Source: Terriglobia bacterium
GTDB lineage: Bacteria > Acidobacteriota > Terriglobia > Acidiferrales > UBA7541
Direction of reading: 5' to 3'
Assembly (NCBI GenBank): GCA_020072805.1
Contig: JAIQGC010000026.1
Location: forward strand, 1-35,558
Length of the DNA stretch: 35,558 nt
Shown here one piece after another: positions 907-15,877 of the stretch; the first letter of the stretch is position 1; every line of letters begins with the position of its first letter. A program made the position numbers and the translations under genes. The notes beneath the pieces are model-generated. The model searched no databases. It was not told the DNA's origin and saw nothing but the letters and a program-made list of their open reading frames with translations.

Positions 907-3596
907 CGCTGAGCCAGGACGCGGTGCAGGAGTTCCAGATCAACCGCAGCAATTATTCGGCGGAGCAGGGATCGGCGAGCGGGGCGTCCATCAATATCGT
1001 GTCGAAGTCCGGCAGCAATCAGGTGCATGGAAGCGGCTATGGATTCTTCCGCAACGACGCGCTGGATGCCCGCGATCCCTTTGCCTATAGCCAGGCGCTG
1101 CAACCGGGGGATGTGTTCAATCCCGCGCTGCCGGACAGTCAGGGCCAGCCGGTGAAGAATACGCTGAGTCGGCAGCAATTCGGCGGGACGCTAGGCCTGC
1201 CCATCAAGAAAGACAAGACGTTCCTGTTTATAGCTTTCGAAGGGTTGCGGCAGGACGCGCAGAACGCAGTTCCGCTGCTGACGAATACCAGTATTTTTCG
1301 CCCGCAGAGCGACGCGACGAACAATCAAGCGGCAATTATCAGCGGACTCGCGGGGCTGGCTGGCAATCCTCCGGTACCCTGCATGACCGGCCAGCCGGCC
1401 TTGCCGGCGGCGACTTGCGCGGCCATTCTGACGAACATCCTGACGCTCAACCCGGTAAGCAGCCCGCTGAATGCCTATCTGGTGAACCAGTTTGAGAACA
1501 ACGGCGGCGTGTTTCCTTATGACACGCGGACGTATCTGGCCTCGGGACGCCTGGACCATCAGGTCGGCAACAACGACCAGGTGCATTTCCGCTACAGCTT
1601 CGGGCATGGCCGGGAGGAGAATCCCGATGTGCAATCGCTGACGGGCTTCTCGCGGGGCAGTTTGCTGCGCAGCTATGATCACACGCTGCAGGGCGCCTGG
1701 TTCCACCAGTTCAGCACGAAGGCGCAGAACGAAATCCGGCTGCAGGGGAGTTACAGCGAAGTGAATGTGATTCCCAATGTGACCGGGCAGGCCGGGCTGG
1801 ATATTCCCGGGTATGCGAATTTGGGGACAAACATCTTCCTGCCGAGCCTGACGATCATGCGGCGCATGGAATTTGCGGACAATTTTACGAAAATTCGCGG
1901 GCACCACACGGTGAAAATGGGGCTATACGCGCTGGAGCGGGGCAATCACACGGAGTCCGACACGTTTTTCCCGGGGCGCTTCGTCTTTGGCTCGCTGCCG
2001 GGAGGAATCCTGAGTCCGTGCTTGCAGGTGCCGGCGGCTTGCGGGCTTCCCGGCACGGTGACGCCCGCGATGATCAATTCGCTGCAGTCGGCGTCCCTGG
2101 GCCTGCCGCAGTTCTATCAGCAGGGCTTCGGCAACCCGGTTTTTCGCTACATGAGGCCGTTGCTGGCGGCGTACTGGCAGGACTCCTGGGCGGTGCGGCC
2201 GAACTTCACGCTGAATTTCGGGGTGCGCTATGAGCTGGATTCGCAGCCGAGAACGCTGCACACGGACAAGAATAATTTCGGTCCGCGCGTATCGTTTGCA
2301 TGGGACCCGTTCAAGGACCACAAGAGCGTAGTGCGCGGCGGATATGGAGTTTTCTTCGCTCCGACGTACTGGCAGATTGCCGATGTGGTGCAGACCCTGG
2401 GAACGGTGATCGGTTTCCGGCAGATTGACAATTTACTGGTACCTCTCACCGGAGAGCCGGGGAATCCCGCGCTGACCTCCGCGGCGATTTTCCAGACGCT
2501 GTTTGCGCAGGGGAAAGTGCAGTGCACGGCGCCGGCGCCGGGCGATGCGGCGTGCATCACGCCCGCGGACCTGACGCAGTTCGGGATCACGGTTAGTCAT
2601 ACGAATCCGCCTCCACCGCTGACGGTGCTCTTTTCCGCTCAGCCGGACTACCAGAACCCGTATTCGCAGCAGGCCGAATTGGGCGTGGAACGCGAGATCA
2701 CGCATGGCCTGTCGGTTTCGGCGAGCTATGTGTATGTGCATTCGCTGCGGCTGCCGGTGGCCATTGACACCAACCCGTTGCCGGTGCCGACCGCGTCCAA
2801 GGTGCTGGCCAACGGGTCAACGGTCAGCTACCAGAACTGGGGTTCCGCTGCTTGCAATGCGATTCCGACCAACTGCTTTGTGAATCCGCTGATCCTGCAG
2901 AACAACGTGTATTCTTCCGCGGCCATGGCGCTGTACCAGGGCGGGCTCGTGGAAGTAAAGAAACGCTTCAGCGATTATTTCACGCTGCTGTTGAACTACA
3001 CCTACAGCAAGGCGCTGGACAATTCCACGGACTTCAATAGCGATTATTCGCCGGTGGATCAGACCAATCTGGCCGCGGAGCGCAGCCTCTCCTCGTTCAA
3101 CGAGCGGCACAAGCTGGTGTTCGCGGGCGTGCTGGAATCTCCTTGGAAGGGCGGGTCAGGAGCCGGCGCGGGACAGCGCATTCTTTCCGGATTCCAGCTC
3201 TCTCCCATCTTCCGCTACAATAGCGGCCATCCTTTCACCCTGCTGGCCGGGAGCGACATCAATGGCGACCGGCATTCCACGAATGACCGTCCGTACGGGG
3301 CCGGGCGCAACACGGGCCTGGGACCGGACTTCTGGACGTTCGACATGCGCATTGCAAGGCAGTTCCACGTCGGGGAGAAGGCGAACCTGCGGTTGCTGGC
3401 AGAAGGGTTCAATCTGCTGAACCGGACGAACTACGGGAGCGTGAACAATGTGGTGGGGGCCGCGTATGGCCTGCTGCCGGGATTCACGACGTATAACGTG
3501 AGCGGAAGCAACGCCGTCTCGCCGAGCCAGCCGCTGGGCTTTACCTCGGCGCTGCCCAAGCGGGAAATTCAAATCGGAGTGCGTCTGGATTTCTAG
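870..3596 (+). CDS. Oar-like TonB-dependent receptor, plug remainder and beta-barrel (second part of broken gene)
   Basis: This frame continues the receptor begun at 343. It opens with the plug motif EANDDSGGVRLTLSQDAV, then FQINRSNYSAEQGSASGAS and INIVSKSGSN, typical of Oar-like receptors, and runs through a long barrel. It ends in a terminal Phe (IGVRLDF), as expected for recognition by the BAM machinery. Family members take up or bind large substrates at the outer membrane using TonB energy, and the ligand cannot be told from sequence. The GTG at 870 is only the first start codon in this frame and has no ribosome site of its own. Without the upstream part the product would lack a signal peptide. 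The two frames together would give an ordinary receptor of about 1,100 residues. Confidence 0.88.
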   Translation: MEANDDSGGVRLTLSQDAVQEFQINRSNYSAEQGSASGASINIVSKSGSNQVHGSGYGFFRNDALDARDPFAYSQALQPGDVFNPALPDSQGQPVKNTLSRQQFGGTLGLPIKKDKTFLFIAFEGLRQDAQNAVPLLTNTSIFRPQSDATNNQAAIISGLAGLAGNPPVPCMTGQPALPAATCAAILTNILTLNPVSSPLNAYLVNQFENNGGVFPYDTRTYLASGRLDHQVGNNDQVHFRYSFGHGREENPDVQSLTGFSRGSLLRSYDHTLQGAWFHQFSTKAQNEIRLQGSYSEVNVIPNVTGQAGLDIPGYANLGTNIFLPSLTIMRRMEFADNFTKIRGHHTVKMGLYALERGNHTESDTFFPGRFVFGSLPGGILSPCLQVPAACGLPGTVTPAMINSLQSASLGLPQFYQQGFGNPVFRYMRPLLAAYWQDSWAVRPNFTLNFGVRYELDSQPRTLHTDKNNFGPRVSFAWDPFKDHKSVVRGGYGVFFAPTYWQIADVVQTLGTVIGFRQIDNLLVPLTGEPGNPALTSAAIFQTLFAQGKVQCTAPAPGDAACITPADLTQFGITVSHTNPPPPLTVLFSAQPDYQNPYSQQAELGVEREITHGLSVSASYVYVHSLRLPVAIDTNPLPVPTASKVLANGSTVSYQNWGSAACNAIPTNCFVNPLILQNNVYSSAAMALYQGGLVEVKKRFSDYFTLLLNYTYSKALDNSTDFNSDYSPVDQTNLAAERSLSSFNERHKLVFAGVLESPWKGGSGAGAGQRILSGFQLSPIFRYNSGHPFTLLAGSDINGDRHSTNDRPYGAGRNTGLGPDFWTFDMRIARQFHVGEKANLRLLAEGFNLLNRTNYGSVNNVVGAAYGLLPGFTTYNVSGSNAVSPSQPLGFTSALPKREIQIGVRLDF

Positions 3597-9644: not shown

Positions 9645-9723
9645 AAGCGCGGCTCGCGGAGCAAAACTGTCGTAGAATGAGTGCTCCGCTGGCGGTGTGT
9701 CTGCGCAGCGTGGAAGGGAATTC

Positions 9724-10350
9724 ATGGTCCGCGAAGGATATACGTTTGGCTTGCCGCTGCTGGCCGCGGGCGCGGGAGCGCTGTTGCTGCACTGGACGGC
9801 GCCGGGCGCGGTGCTGATGGCGCTAGCGCTGTTTGTCTTTTCGTTTTTTCGCGATCCGCAGCGGGTGATACCGGCGGAGGCGGGCGCGGTGGTGTCTCCG
9901 GCGGATGGGCGCGTGGTGGTGGTGACGGAAGAGGAGTTCGAGGGCAAGCCGGGGAAGCGCATCAGCATTTTTCTGGCGGTGTGGAACGTGCACGTGAACC
10001 GCGCGCCGGTGGCCGGGGTGATCGCGCGGGTGGATTACCGGCCGGGAAAATTTTACGGGGCCATGCGCGCGCGGGCTTCGTTTGAAAATGAGCAGAACAT
10101 TATCCACATGAAGACGCCGGACGGGGAGATGGTCTTCAAGCAAATCGCCGGATGGATTGCGCGGCGGGTGATTTGCTGGAAGAAGCCGGGGGAAACGGTG
10201 GCGCGCGGCGAACGCATCGGGCTGGTGCGCTTCGGATCGCGGGTGGACGTGTGGCTGCCGGGGAACGCGGAAATACTGGTGAAGCCGGGCCAGGCGGTGA
10301 GCGGCGGGTCCAGCGTATTGGCGCGCTGGCCGGCGGGCGCGGGCGGATAG
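9724..10350 (+). CDS. psd: Phosphatidylserine decarboxylase, short pyruvoyl type
   Basis: Psd removes CO2 from phosphatidylserine to give phosphatidylethanolamine at the inner membrane. The 208-residue protein belongs to the short proenzyme class. Two hydrophobic segments lie at about 8-42, then FFRDPQR, SPADGRV (58-64), LAVWNVHVNRAP (84-95) and the self-cleavage site FGSR (170-173), where the Ser of Gly171-Ser172 becomes the pyruvoyl group. The start at 9724 follows GGAAGGGA (9712-9719); an upstream in-frame start at 9697 adds nine residues outside the family pattern. The next gene, pssA, makes its substrate. Confidence 0.95.
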   Translation: MVREGYTFGLPLLAAGAGALLLHWTAPGAVLMALALFVFSFFRDPQRVIPAEAGAVVSPADGRVVVVTEEEFEGKPGKRISIFLAVWNVHVNRAPVAGVIARVDYRPGKFYGAMRARASFENEQNIIHMKTPDGEMVFKQIAGWIARRVICWKKPGETVARGERIGLVRFGSRVDVWLPGNAEILVKPGQAVSGGSSVLARWPAGAGG

Positions 10351-10442: not shown

Positions 10443-11264
10443 ATGGCGGACAGCGAACAACCGGCACTTCCTTTTGATCCCAAACAGATGAGGCGATTGA
10501 AGCTGCGGCGGGGAATTTACCTGCTGCCCAGCCTGTTCACCGTGGCCAATCTGATGTGCGGGTACTACGCGGTGATGGCGGCGCTGGCAGGAGGAGCCAA
10601 CGAATACGACCGGGCGGCGAAGGCAATCGGTTACGCCATTCTGTTCGACTCGCTGGACGGCCGCGTGGCGCGCATGACCGGAACGAACACGGAATTCGGC
10701 AAACAGTTTGATTCGCTGGCGGACGTGGTCAGCTTCGGAATCGCCCCGGCGGTGCTGGCGCTGGCCTGGGGAGTGAAGGGCCTGGCGGATCCGGGGTTTG
10801 TATCGGTGCAGCAGATTTCGCAGCTGGGGTGGATGTGCTGCCTGGTCTTCATGATTTGCTGCGCGTGGCGCCTGGCGCGCTTCAACGTGCAGGGAATGGC
10901 GCCGGGAGGACTGGCGCACTTCGTGGGCATGCCCACGCCAGCGGCTGCAGGGGTGGTCGCAGGAGTCATTCACGCGTTCAAGCAGCCGCTGCACGACTGG
11001 CGGTGGGCGGTGGCTTGGCTGCTCCTGGCGGCGGGGCTGGGCGCGCTGATGACCAGCACGGTGAGGTATTACAGCTTCAAGGACATCGCCTGGACACGGC
11101 GGTATCCGTCGCTGGGGATTGTTCTGATTGCGCTGATCGTGGCGGGCATTTATCTCTATTCGGAGATTGCCCTGTTCCTGATTGCCACTGGCTATGCGGC
11201 GGCGGGCGTCCTCATTCATTTGGTGCGCTGGCTGCGTCCGCGTGCCGCGCAGCCGGTGGCCTGA
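10443..11264 (+). CDS. pssA: CDP-diacylglycerol--serine O-phosphatidyltransferase
   Basis: PssA condenses CDP-diacylglycerol with serine into phosphatidylserine, the substrate of Psd encoded just upstream. The CDP-alcohol phosphotransferase signature DG-x2-AR-x8-G-x3-D-x3-D is complete (DGRVAR ... G ... FDSLAD). Several membrane helices follow, including one near LLLAAGLGALM and two near the C-terminus. The length is 273 residues. GGAGG (10429-10433) lies 9 nt before the ATG. The gap after psd is 92 nt, with A-rich bases but no terminator, so the pair is likely cotranscribed. Confidence 0.95.
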   Translation: MADSEQPALPFDPKQMRRLKLRRGIYLLPSLFTVANLMCGYYAVMAALAGGANEYDRAAKAIGYAILFDSLDGRVARMTGTNTEFGKQFDSLADVVSFGIAPAVLALAWGVKGLADPGFVSVQQISQLGWMCCLVFMICCAWRLARFNVQGMAPGGLAHFVGMPTPAAAGVVAGVIHAFKQPLHDWRWAVAWLLLAAGLGALMTSTVRYYSFKDIAWTRRYPSLGIVLIALIVAGIYLYSEIALFLIATGYAAAGVLIHLVRWLRPRAAQPVA

Positions 11265-11267
11265 CGA

Positions 11268-12278
11268 GTGGCCGATACCATGCGCTCGACCCGCATCGTT
11301 ATCGCCGGCGCTTCGTCACTTCTAGGGGCTGAACTCAAGGAATTGCTGGAGGAGAGCCGCCTTGCCGGTGCGGATTTTCGTCTGGTGGATGAAGAGATGG
11401 CCGCCGGAACGCTGACCGAAGCAGGAGGGGAGCCGGTGGTGATTCAGCCGGTGGATGAGGACAGTTTTGCGCGAGCGCAAATTGTATTTTTCACGGGTTC
11501 GAGCGGCTTTACCGCGCGAAATGCCGGGGCGGCGCGCCGCGCGAGGGCCAGGGTGATTGATCTTTCCGGCGGGCTGGCCGGGGAGAGTGGAACGCGGATG
11601 TGGATTCCGCAAGGGGAAGCGCCGGCGGGCCAGGGTATCGAGGGAGAACAGTTTTGCGTGCCGGGAGCGCCGGGGTGCATGGCGGCGATGCTGGCGCTGG
11701 GCCTGCGGCGCGCGGGGCTGAAGAGGCTGGCGGTGGTCTTTTACCGGCCGGCGGCCGAAGCGGGCCGCTACGGAATCGAAGAGCTGGAGGAGCAGACTCG
11801 GCGGCTGCTGACGTTTCAACCGGCGGGCGGGGAAGTGTTTGGAACGCAGGTGGCGTTCAGTATGGCGGACCGCTACGGGGAATCGAGCGCGGAAAATCTG
11901 GCCCGGGAGCGGACGCGGATTCAGCGGGAAGCCGCCGCCTGCCTGAGTGGCGCCGGAGTGAGCGCGGCAGTGCAGCCGTCCGTGCAGGTGGTGCATGCGC
12001 CGGTGTTCTACGGAACTATGTTTTCGGCCTGGGCGGAGATGGCCGCGGAGTCCGCGGCGGCGGATGTAGCGACTGCGTGCCGGGAAGCGGGATTTGCGGT
12101 GGCCGAAGCGGGAGCGGCGGCTCCGGGGAACGTGAGCGTGGCCGGAGAAACGGGCGCGCAGGTGGCCTGGCCGGAAGGCGATGCGGCGAGCGCGGGGGCG
12201 TGGTGGCTATGGGGCGGCGCGGACAACGTGAAATTTCCCGCGGCGCAGGCGGTGCGATTGGCGGAGAGGCTGCTGTGA
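11268..12278 (+). CDS. Aspartate-semialdehyde dehydrogenase-like protein lacking most catalytic residues
   Basis: The fold is that of aspartate-semialdehyde dehydrogenase (ASD/USG-1): a Rossmann start IVIAGASSLLGAEL (10-23) and the Asd/ArgC dimerisation region (about 140-330). The catalytic Cys is kept (C137, in PGCMAAM), but the partner Gln is replaced by Arg160 (FYRPAAEAG where ASD has YQAxSG). The substrate Arg and catalytic His of the RxPVxxGH motif are replaced by His243 and Thr250 (HAPVFYGT). It is therefore probably not a working ASD in the lysine/threonine pathway; another reaction or a structural role is possible. GTG 11268 starts 3 nt after pssA; ATG 11280 is an alternative. Its stop overlaps lptE. 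Confidence 0.8.
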   Translation: MADTMRSTRIVIAGASSLLGAELKELLEESRLAGADFRLVDEEMAAGTLTEAGGEPVVIQPVDEDSFARAQIVFFTGSSGFTARNAGAARRARARVIDLSGGLAGESGTRMWIPQGEAPAGQGIEGEQFCVPGAPGCMAAMLALGLRRAGLKRLAVVFYRPAAEAGRYGIEELEEQTRRLLTFQPAGGEVFGTQVAFSMADRYGESSAENLARERTRIQREAAACLSGAGVSAAVQPSVQVVHAPVFYGTMFSAWAEMAAESAAADVATACREAGFAVAEAGAAAPGNVSVAGETGAQVAWPEGDAASAGAWWLWGGADNVKFPAAQAVRLAERLL

Positions 12279-12808
12279 AGGGCGCGGGAAGGCGGGCATT
12301 GCTGGCGACGGCGGTGCTGGTGGCGATATTTACAGGCGGATGCGCATACCACGTGGCCGGGCGTTCGCAGTCGCTGCCCGCGATGATACGCACCATCGCG
12401 GTGCCGGCGTTTGAAAATGCGACGACGCGCTACCGAATCGAGCAGCGGCTGACCGAAGCGACTATCTGGGAATTTCTGGCGCGGAGCAAGTACCGAATCG
12501 TCTCCGATGCGGCAGGCGCGGACGCGACGGTGCGGGGCAAAGTGTCCGCGGTGGAGACGACGCCGCTGCTCTTTGACACCACCACAGGGCGTCCGACGGC
12601 CATGTTGGTGACGGTGCGCTGCCAGGTGTGGATGGAAGAGAATGCCACGAAGAAGGAACTCTACCGCAACGACAATTTTCTGTTCCGCAACCAGTACGAA
12701 ATTTCCACGGATGTAGCCAGCTTCTTCGAGGAGCAGGACCCAGCTCTGGACCGGCTGGCGCGGGATTTTTCCTCGCGGCTGGTGGCGGCGATTCTGGAGG
12801 GTTTTTAA
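12275..12808 (+). CDS. lptE: LptE-like outer-membrane lipoprotein
   Basis: LptE plugs the LptD barrel and helps deliver lipopolysaccharide to the outer surface. The 177-residue product has a lipoprotein signal peptide (RRALLATAVLVAIF) with lipobox TGGC, so Cys23 would be lipidated. It then shows the family's start CAYHVAGRSQSLP, AVPAFENATTRYRIEQRLTE, and DPALDRLARDFSSRLVAAIL near the end. The start is GTG at 12275, overlapping the previous stop as GTGA, with GGAGAGG at 12263-12269. It is placed directly before holA with 1 nt between, as lptE often is in bacteria. Confidence 0.9.
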   Translation: MKGAGRRALLATAVLVAIFTGGCAYHVAGRSQSLPAMIRTIAVPAFENATTRYRIEQRLTEATIWEFLARSKYRIVSDAAGADATVRGKVSAVETTPLLFDTTTGRPTAMLVTVRCQVWMEENATKKELYRNDNFLFRNQYEISTDVASFFEEQDPALDRLARDFSSRLVAAILEGF

Positions 12809-12809
12809 A

Positions 12810-13856
12810 ATGGCGCGCATCGCGGCCGGAGAGCTGGGCGAGCGGCTGGCGAAGGGCAAGGCCATCCCCGCGATTTTTCTTCTGGGGAATGAGCCCTTCC
12901 TGCGGGATAGCTGCCGCAAGCTGCTGATCGAGAAGTTTGTGCCGGAAGCGGCGCGGGCCTGGGCGCTTTCGCGGTTTTCCGCGGCGCGCGGGGAAGCGGA
13001 AGCGGCGCTGGCGCAGGCGCAGACGCTGCCGATGCTGTGCCCGCAGCAGGTGGTGTTTCTGGAGGACTGCGAAGGTCTGGAGAAACTTGGCGAAGAGCGG
13101 CGCAATGAGTTCGTTGAAGCGCTGGGGGCCTATCTGGACAATCCCGCGCCGTTTACGACGCTGGTGCTGGAGGCGGGAGCGCTCGACCAGCGCATGAAAT
13201 TCGCCAAGGTCCTGGCGGAGCAAGCCCTGGTGGTGGCCGTGGGTCTGGGTGAGGACGAGCGGGAACGGCGCACGGTGGCGGTGGGCCTGGCGGCGGAGAT
13301 GGCCGGAGAGCTGGGAGTGACGCTGGAGAAGGGAGCGGCCGAGGAGTTGGCCGAACTGGTGGCGGAGGATTTGCAGCGGCTGAAAATGGAGATGGAGAAG
13401 CTGGCCACGCACGCGGGAGATCGAAAAACCATTCGTCTGGAGGACGTGAGCGCGCTGGTGGTTTCGACCAGGAAAAACACCGTGTGGCAGCTGGCGGACA
13501 TGCTGGCGGCGGGGAAGAGAAAGACGGCGCTGGAGTTTCTGGACCGGCTGCTGCGTGAAGGAGATGAGCCGGTGGCGCTGGTGGGAGCGATGGCCTGGAT
13601 GTACCGGAAAATGATCGAAGCGCAGGAAATTAAGGGAGTGGCCAACGGGTGGCAGGCGGCGCGGCAGCTGGGGATGAAACCGGAAACGGCGGAATTGGCG
13701 CTGCAGAGCGCGCGGCGGATGCCGCGGGCGCAACTGCTCGCGGGGCTGCGGGTGCTGCAGGAGTGCGACGACCGGCTGAAGGGCGGGGGGCGCGACCCGC
13801 GGGCGCTGCTGGACTTCCTGATCGCGCGGCTGACGGCGCGGGGCCATCTGGCGTGA
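12810..13856 (+). CDS. holA: DNA polymerase III subunit delta
   Basis: HolA is the wrench of the clamp loader that opens the beta sliding clamp. The 348-residue protein begins with the AAA+-like strand IFLLGNEPFLRDSCRKLL (22-39), the family's counterpart of YLLYGDE. A central lid follows (LKMEMEKLATHAG, VWQLADMLAAGKRKTALEFL), then a C-terminal helical collar ending in LLDFLIARLTARG. No Walker A is present, as expected for delta. It is the last gene of the psd-to-holA run and converges on rpsT, whose terminator lies in between. Confidence 0.93.
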   Translation: MARIAAGELGERLAKGKAIPAIFLLGNEPFLRDSCRKLLIEKFVPEAARAWALSRFSAARGEAEAALAQAQTLPMLCPQQVVFLEDCEGLEKLGEERRNEFVEALGAYLDNPAPFTTLVLEAGALDQRMKFAKVLAEQALVVAVGLGEDERERRTVAVGLAAEMAGELGVTLEKGAAEELAELVAEDLQRLKMEMEKLATHAGDRKTIRLEDVSALVVSTRKNTVWQLADMLAAGKRKTALEFLDRLLREGDEPVALVGAMAWMYRKMIEAQEIKGVANGWQAARQLGMKPETAELALQSARRMPRAQLLAGLRVLQECDDRLKGGGRDPRALLDFLIARLTARGHLA

Positions 13857-14265: not shown

Positions 14266-14294
14266 ACGATAGACGAGGCTAACCATTTTGTCAA
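14266..14294 (-). promoter_or_regulatory. Sigma-70-type promoter of rpsT
   Basis: On the minus strand a perfect TTGACA (14289-14294) is followed after 17 nt by TATCGT (14266-14271, 4/6). Transcription would start near 14259, giving a leader of about 29 nt. The -35 box overlaps the TTG start codon of the divergent AAA+ gene. Confidence 0.8.
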
Positions 14295-15877
14295 ACCAGG
14301 TCCCCAATCCGTTTCCCGCAGGACCGCCGCAAACGGCGCAGAAAAACAGTGCGGAAGGGTTGCGCGCCGGCGTGAATGCGGGAGATGCGCGCCCGCCGGA
14401 CAAGAAAGATGAGCTGCGGCTGCTGGTGAATTCGCATCATCCGCTGATTACCATTGAATCGGCGGAAGAGGAGCGCGTGGAGGCGCTGCTGCATGACGTG
14501 GCGGCGGAACTGGGCGTGGCTTTCTACGTGTGGACGGTGACCACGGGGCTGGCGCGCTACGGCGGGCAGCCGCTCTATAACAGCGACGCGCCCGAGCTGG
14601 CCCTGGCCAATATCGCCCAGGTAAAGGGCGACGCGCTGTTCCTGCTGAAGGATTTTTCGCGCTATACCGAGCAGGACAAGATCTGCCGCAAGCTGCGCGA
14701 CCTGGCCGAGGGATTCCGCGCGGCGCGGCGCTCGATTGTGATTTCCGGGGCTTCGTTGCACCTGCCGGCGGAGCTGGCCGCGGACGCCGCGCCCTATCGC
14801 ATGGCGCTGCCGGATTCGGAGGAGTTACTCCCGGCGGTGCGCGAGGTTCTGGCCACGGCGGCGCGGGAGCAGAACCTGGCGGTGCATCTGGATTCGCAGG
14901 CGGTGGCGCAGTTGACGCACAACCTGGTGGGGTTGCCGCGGGAGGAGGCCGTGCGCACGCTGAGGATGTGCCTGCTGGCGCGGGGGCAGGCTGATCCGGG
15001 ACTGCTGGCGGACGTGCTGGAGGCCAAGCGCAAGGCGCTGCGCGAGGACGGTTTGCTGGAGACGGTGCGGCGGGATTCGTCGTTTGGGGACGTAGCCGGG
15101 CTGGCGCGGCTGCGCGAGTGGGTGCGCAAGCGCGGCAGCGCGCTGACTCCCGAGGGCCGCGCGTTCGGCCTGGAAGCGCCGAAGGGCGTGCTGATCACCG
15201 GCGTGCAGGGCTGCGGGAAGAGCCTGGCGGCGCGGGCCATTGCCGGGGAGTGGGGCTACGAACTGGCGCGGCTGGACGCTGGGTCGCTCTACGACAAATA
15301 CATCGGGGAATCGGAGAAGCGCCTGCATCAGACGCTGGAGCTGGCGCAGCGGCTGGCGCCCATGGTGCTGTGGATTGACGAAATCGAAAAGGCCTTTGCT
15401 TCGTCGTCGGCCGGGACGGAATCGGACGGCGGGCTTTCGCAGCGCCTGCTGGCCACCATGCTGACGTGGATGCAGGAGCGCGAAGGCGGCGTGTTCCTGG
15501 CGGCGACGTCGAACAATATCTCCTCGCTGCCGCCGGAGATGCTGCGCAAGGGGCGCTTCGACGAAATTTTCTTCGTGGACCTGCCGGGGGAGCCGGCGCG
15601 GGAAGCGCTGTTCGGACTACACCTGAGGAAACGCGGGCGGGATGCGGGGCAGTTTAATTTGACGGCGCTGGCGGCGGCCAGCGAGGGATTTTCCGGGGCG
15701 GAGATTGAACAGTCCATCGTGGCCGGACTATATACGGCGTTCAGCGGGAAGCAGCAGCTTTCCACGGAAATTTTGCTGGCGGAGTTGCACGGGACGCAGC
15801 CGCTCAGCGTGACGCGGGCCGAGGAAGTGAGTTCGCTGCGGGCCTGGGCGCAGAGCCGGGCCGTGCCGGCGGAGTGA
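14288..15877 (+). CDS. Ycf46-like AAA+ ATPase
   Basis: A 529-residue protein with an N-terminal region (about 40-260) as in the Ycf46 family and a C-terminal AAA+ module. Walker A is GVQGCGKS (305-312), Walker B VLWIDEIE (360-367), sensor-1 near N409, and the arginine-finger region is RKGRFDE (420-426). The second region of homology GGLSQRLLATMLTWMQE is also typical. Ycf46 relatives are widespread in cyanobacteria and plastids, where one has been tied to carbon metabolism, but the role elsewhere is unknown. The start is TTG at 14288; GAGG lies about 11 nt upstream. The first 40 residues are Pro/Asn-rich and probably flexible. Its stop is 7 nt from that of the convergent capA-like gene. Confidence 0.85.
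   Translation: MSNQVPNPFPAGPPQTAQKNSAEGLRAGVNAGDARPPDKKDELRLLVNSHHPLITIESAEEERVEALLHDVAAELGVAFYVWTVTTGLARYGGQPLYNSDAPELALANIAQVKGDALFLLKDFSRYTEQDKICRKLRDLAEGFRAARRSIVISGASLHLPAELAADAAPYRMALPDSEELLPAVREVLATAAREQNLAVHLDSQAVAQLTHNLVGLPREEAVRTLRMCLLARGQADPGLLADVLEAKRKALREDGLLETVRRDSSFGDVAGLARLREWVRKRGSALTPEGRAFGLEAPKGVLITGVQGCGKSLAARAIAGEWGYELARLDAGSLYDKYIGESEKRLHQTLELAQRLAPMVLWIDEIEKAFASSSAGTESDGGLSQRLLATMLTWMQEREGGVFLAATSNNISSLPPEMLRKGRFDEIFFVDLPGEPAREALFGLHLRKRGRDAGQFNLTALAAASEGFSGAEIEQSIVAGLYTAFSGKQQLSTEILLAELHGTQPLSVTRAEEVSSLRAWAQSRAVPAE

Follow-up and report, generated by a model that had tools for sequence, protein, structure and literature searches.

In aspartate-semialdehyde dehydrogenases (ASADHs) the catalytic cysteine stands at the start of a helix, and the residues of the catalytic set are, in E. 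coli Asd, Cys135, Gln162, Arg267, and His274. Proteins with the ASADH fold that lack this set are known as USG-1 or Usg, and include the product of E. coli usg (b2319; PRK08040), the PRK05671 proteins, and the P. aeruginosa homolog 2hjs. E. coli Usg has a serine in place of the Cys, an isoleucine in place of the Gln, and a glutamine in place of the Arg, and its gene lies in the order pdxB-usg-truA-dedA. In passages of a paper describing the Salmonella pdxB-usg-truA-dedA operon, Usg is given no biochemical function (PMC6358828).

The window analyzed here is a 35,558-nucleotide stretch of a Terriglobia bacterium genome (contig JAIQGC010000026.1), and it contains an open frame for a protein of this kind, which we call AsdL. 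A search of one open-access literature collection found nothing on the AsdL family. We infer, with about even confidence, that AsdL, an ASADH-fold protein without the catalytic residues that is old in the phylum, acts in membrane-lipid and envelope homeostasis; probably it helps membrane assembly without catalyzing a reaction. The frame begins with a GTG codon 3 nt past the pssA stop, in register in our alignment with the ATG of relatives, and its stop shares four nucleotides (GTGA) with the lptE start. Both the order, between pssA and lptE, and the open frame at 11268-12278, here of 336 residues, agree with the original prediction. Farther along, after rpsT and the asdL run, positions 14288-15877 of the window hold a gene for an AAA+ ATPase of 529 residues.

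Table 1. Features of the asdL locus, in window coordinates.
Feature	Position	Strand	Remark
psd	9697..10350	+	phosphatidylserine decarboxylase
pssA	10443..11264	+	CDP-diacylglycerol-serine O-phosphatidyltransferase; TIGR00473, 108.9 bits, cut-off 107
asdL	11268..12278	+	open frame, 336 aa; dead ASADH-fold paralog
asdL codons 14-20	11307..11327	+	altered dinucleotide loop GASSLLG, by alignment
asdL codons 41-43	11388..11396	+	D-E-E, at A-S-x of the canonical A-S-x-R-S stretch
A134	11667..11669	+	column of the catalytic Cys (E. coli Cys135)
C137	11676..11678	+	originally taken as the catalytic Cys; three residues past the true column
R160	11745..11747	+	Gln162 column
H243	11994..11996	+	Arg267 column; invariantly H in the genus (27 of 27)
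T250	12015..12017	+	His274 column
lptE	12275..12808	+	overlaps the end of asdL
holA	12810..13856	+	DNA polymerase III delta subunit

We compared the active site in a MAFFT alignment whose 110 rows comprised 101 members of the family, E. coli Asd, two rows of E. coli Usg, the Asd of this genome, and five loci with a canonical or broken Asd. Family-wide counts refer to 142 AsdL genomes, which are a sample of the hits; one of 143 rows, a Planctomycetota Asd with a broken frame (L038), was removed, eight genomes or records whose protein has Cys, Gln, and Arg were treated as canonical and excluded, and profile hits below 45 bits were not used. The alignment placed R160, H243, and T250 in the Gln162, Arg267, and His274 columns, as had been claimed. 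The original prediction also held that the Cys is kept as C137, and here the alignment disagreed: the Cys135 column is occupied by A134, and the C137 column contains T in 15 of 27 genus members, M in four, V in two, and I, A, F, L, E, and C in one each. In an AlphaFold model a helix starts at residue 134 and C137 sits within it; the model was built on a four-sequence alignment, with a mean pLDDT of 65.5 and values below 50 for residues 161-248. On these grounds we rejected C137 as the nucleophile. The earlier motif reading is understandable, because a pairwise phmmer alignment with V. cholerae Asd II (2qz9) does match C137 to the Cys of that enzyme.

The substitutions are also not the fixed set that had been described. 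Among the 27 genus members, the Cys column is A in 25 and P in two; the Gln column is Q in 13, R in 13, and W in one; and the His column is T in 12, Y in seven, M, S, and V in two each, and H and L in one each. The Arg column, H throughout, is the sole invariant one of the four. With the retained Cys and the fixed substitutions both gone, the case for Cys chemistry in a new role falls. Across the family, none of the 142 AsdL has Cys in the Cys column of the alignment, and none of these homologs retains Gln, Arg, and His together; Arg by itself is kept in 10, two of which also have His. We conclude that loss of the nucleophile and of the substrate-binding set excludes ASADH chemistry for the predicted protein, on present knowledge of the family. 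What is left is a Rossmann-fold protein carrying the ASADH dimer domain. The original observation holds in its general form, but its main detail, the retained Cys, is wrong.

The rest of the protein is conserved in a different pattern. In the dinucleotide loop, the middle Gly of GxxGxxG is replaced by Ser or Thr in 128 of the 142 AsdL, and the glycines that persist are G14 (128) and G20 (124). At the site of the A-S-x-R-S stretch with which canonical Asd reads NADP, acidic residues are common, with D or E at position 41 in 106 of 142. Near-invariant positions are F247 (142 of 142), D98 and Q176 (140 each), and E172 (137), followed by S163 and D319 (136 each), P161 and W315 (132 each), and W313 (124); position 248 is H or Y in 133. 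D98, S163, E172, and D319 are common to AsdL and the canonical rows, F247 and N320 are common to AsdL and Usg, and P161 and W313 are peculiar to the AsdL family. Because fixed positions persist and the catalytic columns do not, the scaffold has been kept and the catalytic set lost.

The same residues could belong to an enzyme that has acquired a new function, in which the Rossmann domain and new residues in the old pocket would serve a reaction that needs no Cys, with a substrate derived from serine or from an envelope lipid. Retention of F247, P161, W313, H/Y248, G14, and G20 at the frequencies given above is consistent with such an enzyme. The old catalytic columns, however, vary widely even inside the genus, and no new polar residue is universal in them, so we consider a new enzymatic activity possible but doubtful.

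To place the family, we compared AsdL with curated models and structures. Two Pfam domains were found, Semialdhyde_dh (34.8 bits) and Semialdhyde_dhC (35.1 bits), each above the cut-off of 26. Six NCBIfam models match the asdL product, all far under their cut-offs, the best being PRK05671 (94.7 of 284 bits) and PRK08040 (78.3 of 273), followed by PRK14874 (74.6 of 223) and asd_B (55.4 of 324.2). The nearest curated models are all named aspartate-semialdehyde dehydrogenase, so genomes with AsdL may be credited with a false second enzyme of the lysine/threonine pathway. In a Foldseek search with the model of mean pLDDT 65.5, the best matches were all ASADH-fold proteins, with the USG-1 homolog 2hjs at the top.

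AsdL thus resembles Usg in having the ASADH fold without the catalytic set, and both its two best NCBIfam models and its best fold match are of the Usg type. E. coli Usg itself scores 683.5 bits on PRK08040, so the models nearest to AsdL include that of Usg, and the two proteins have a Q/H-A-P-V-F stretch in common. In contrast to Usg, AsdL falls under both Usg-type cut-offs, as does a distant AsdL (L046; 84.2 bits on PRK08040 and 139.3 on PRK05671). It is further set apart from USG-1 by W313, P161, and S/T17-L18, and its gene adjoins psd, pssA, lptE, and holA, not truA. With only two Usg rows available, a grouping of AsdL with 2hjs received support of 66/70 under a mixture model against 95 under a simpler model, and, again with two Usg rows, a topology joining AsdL to both Usg was not rejected (p-AU 0.248). 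With bacterial-type ASADHs (TIGR01296, asd_B; 2qz9), AsdL has both Pfam domains, the fold, D98, E172, Q176, and D319 in common, but it lacks the Cys, Gln, Arg, and His and remains far below the asd_B cut-off. With the asd_EA-type Asd of its own genome it has only the superfamily in common. AsdL is best classed as a dead ASADH paralog resembling Usg, in a distinct family with a lipid-gene context, and neither as an Asd nor as a proven member of USG-1.

We then considered the gene neighborhood in relatives. The gene immediately 5' of asdL is pssA in 135 of 142 genomes, a count that is biased by eight genomes found by looking beside pssA and becomes 127 of 134 without them. In the 135 genomes, the distance from the pssA stop to the first aligned AsdL codon has a median of -1 nt (quartiles -25 and 1), a proximity that makes translational coupling of the two genes likely. 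Within 500 bp downstream of asdL there is lptE in 68 of 142 genomes and an MsbA-like gene in nine. Among the seven exceptions without pssA, two (G006 and G309) are short of upstream sequence, one (G365) has yicC next to asdL, and four (G354, G400, G384, and G431; loci L253, L255, L256, and L257) have the MsbA-like gene next downstream. On MsbA_lipidA, their best-scoring model, the MsbA-like proteins of the four genomes reach 543.9-574 bits, short of the cut-off of 602, and two of these proteins were the source of the profile with which the other five were found, so "MsbA-like" is as far as the naming goes. Five genomes have pssA, asdL, and an MsbA-like gene in one run, with psd before pssA in L239 and L241. 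Individual loci have other neighbors: a group 1 glycosyltransferase gene lies upstream of asdL in L255, and yicC follows the exporter gene in L253. At L258 (G309; 395-2720), a divergent AsdL with S, T, D, and N in the active-site columns stands directly before a tyrosyl-tRNA synthetase gene, and the contig ends upstream.

As a control, we looked for psd, pssA, lptE, and MsbA-like genes near 11 canonical Asd loci (10 genomes or records including L038, with flanks of 0.4-5 kb) and found them at none. Fusion of AsdL with a neighbor was also considered and rejected, because none of the frames examined joined AsdL to PssA, Psd, LptE, the exporter, or HolA. The two flanking genes differ in how far they reach. 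All 68 cases of lptE adjacency fall in the 91 class-level genomes and one named record, whereas among 50 phylum genomes outside the class lptE is beside asdL in none and pssA in 44. Of the context originally proposed, a place between pssA and lptE, the pssA side is therefore deep and the lptE side holds within the class only, and we rejected lptE as the defining neighbor.

By name, psd, pssA, lptE, and the MsbA-like exporter belong to membrane lipid synthesis or LPS export, which favors a non-catalytic accessory or regulatory role. In the model that we prefer, AsdL would be translated from the psd-pssA message and would form an ASADH-like dimer. The dimer may still hold a dinucleotide although the loop is altered, perhaps NAD(H), which the acidic residues at the NADP-reading site would favor. 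AsdL would then be a subunit without catalysis of its own that assists or regulates an enzyme, PssA or Psd being the likeliest, and would thereby match phosphatidylethanolamine supply to envelope assembly. About half of the sampled species are without AsdL, which suggests that it modulates the pathway and does not carry it. Several observations count against a role in envelope homeostasis: AsdL evolves faster than its neighbors, is without fusions, has mostly lost the loop glycine, and is missing from 75 of 136 phylum genomes, and its model is weak at residues 161-248. A more specific version, which we offer tentatively and with low confidence, is that AsdL is an envelope regulator of a new kind, a dead ASADH dimer that senses cytosolic NAD(H) or a signal from the aspartate/serine pathway and sets the activity of PS synthase, so that in Acidobacteriota the output of phosphatidylethanolamine keeps pace with LPS export. 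Should the link to lipid genes prove functional, AsdL would offer a testable way of studying how phospholipid and LPS are kept in balance in this phylum, and a second example through which to approach the role of dead ASADHs of the Usg type.

An LPS-transport-specific role could account for part of the same neighborhood. AsdL would then work together with LptE or the MsbA-like exporter, and a shared promoter alone would explain why its gene follows pssA. The frequency of lptE and MsbA-like genes downstream, and the four genomes in which the exporter is beside asdL without pssA, are consistent with such a partnership. We nevertheless think it unlikely, because in the 50 phylum genomes outside the class asdL mostly has pssA beside it and never lptE.

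AsdL forms one clade against canonical Asd and Usg, with support of 100/100 in a mixture-model tree (41 rows, 30 of them AsdL) and 100 in a simpler-model tree (107 rows, 100 AsdL); both trees left out rows shorter than 290 residues. We estimated dN/dS by the Nei-Gojobori method, which is near saturation at depth, and obtained 0.165, 0.190, 0.198, and 0.117 in the four closest genus pairs. For the 173 pairs with dS below 2, the median was 0.23 for AsdL, and those of PssA, Psd, LptE, and HolA were 0.16, 0.11, 0.15, and 0.14, indicating that AsdL is constrained, though less than its neighbors. Purifying selection in the closest pairs, the single clade, and the separate asd described below all support the original view of a conserved paralog, and decay was rejected on the low dN/dS, the family-specific kept residues, and the fully supported clade. 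We conclude that asdL is an ASADH paralog, old in the phylum and under purifying selection.

At E ≤ 1e-5 the asdL product has matches in 260 of the 299 class genomes and in 59 of the 149 from the phylum, counts that take in a few genomes matching via canonical Asd (G023, G045, G320, and G344). With the family profile, with pssA neighborhoods checked, and with canonical Asd set aside, AsdL is present as a preserved pseudoenzyme family in 65 of the 149 sampled phylum genomes; 140 of the 149 have a PssA match. Where at least 1000 nt were available after pssA (136 phylum genomes), 61 have AsdL and 75 have none that was found, so AsdL is not required for phosphatidylethanolamine synthesis as such. 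In one genome without AsdL (G345), the gene after pssA (L220, 1203-2441, minus strand) resembles what we take, by sequence, to be a PLP-dependent aminotransferase. All 27 genus members whose locus was examined have AsdL; two further members (G194 and G262), each less than 90% complete, gave no match at E ≤ 1e-5. A tblastn search of a plasmid collection with the asdL product gave no match at 1e-5, and a scan of genome contigs identified a single AsdL, L036, along with two further loci of Asd type (L037 and L038). At L239 (G317; 1798-2920, minus strand), the AsdL match is split over two frames between pssA and the MsbA-like gene, possibly a frameshift or a broken copy.

Alternatively, asdL could be a hitch-hiking operon relic with no important function now and heading for loss, and the faster change of AsdL relative to its neighbors, its absence from about half of the sampled phylum, and the split copy at L239 would agree with this. 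We consider a relic quite improbable, since close pairs are under purifying selection, the family is a single old clade with its own fixed residues, and the gene is kept in every genus member with an examined locus.

Finally, the canonical asd that the original prediction had proposed to look for elsewhere in the genome is present. It is an asd_EA-type gene (G000:C124; TIGR00978, 449.5 bits, cut-off 301.2) with the Cys, Gln, Arg, and His intact, and it lies directly after an aspartokinase gene (TIGR00657, 259.4 bits, cut-off 208.7). Absence of a second asd, or homologs with Gln, Arg, and His all kept, had been named at the outset as grounds for refutation, and neither was observed. The phmmer match to 2qz9 might suggest that C137 is a displaced nucleophile and that AsdL has remained an aspartate-semialdehyde dehydrogenase. 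This is hardly credible, because 26 of the 27 genus members lack C137, the residue is within a helix in the model, other residues stand in place of Gln, Arg, and His, and the genome has another asd. By sequence similarity, a protein matching the product of the genome's own asd at E ≤ 1e-5 occurs in 134 of 151 class genomes, eight of these matches being weak (E 8e-7 to 1e-14) and perhaps other Asd types. Two genomes, G319 (L284/L109) and G381 (L259/L269), each carry a bacterial-type Asd with Cys, Gln, Arg, and His in addition to AsdL, and bacterial-type Asd and AsdL therefore coexist as paralogs.
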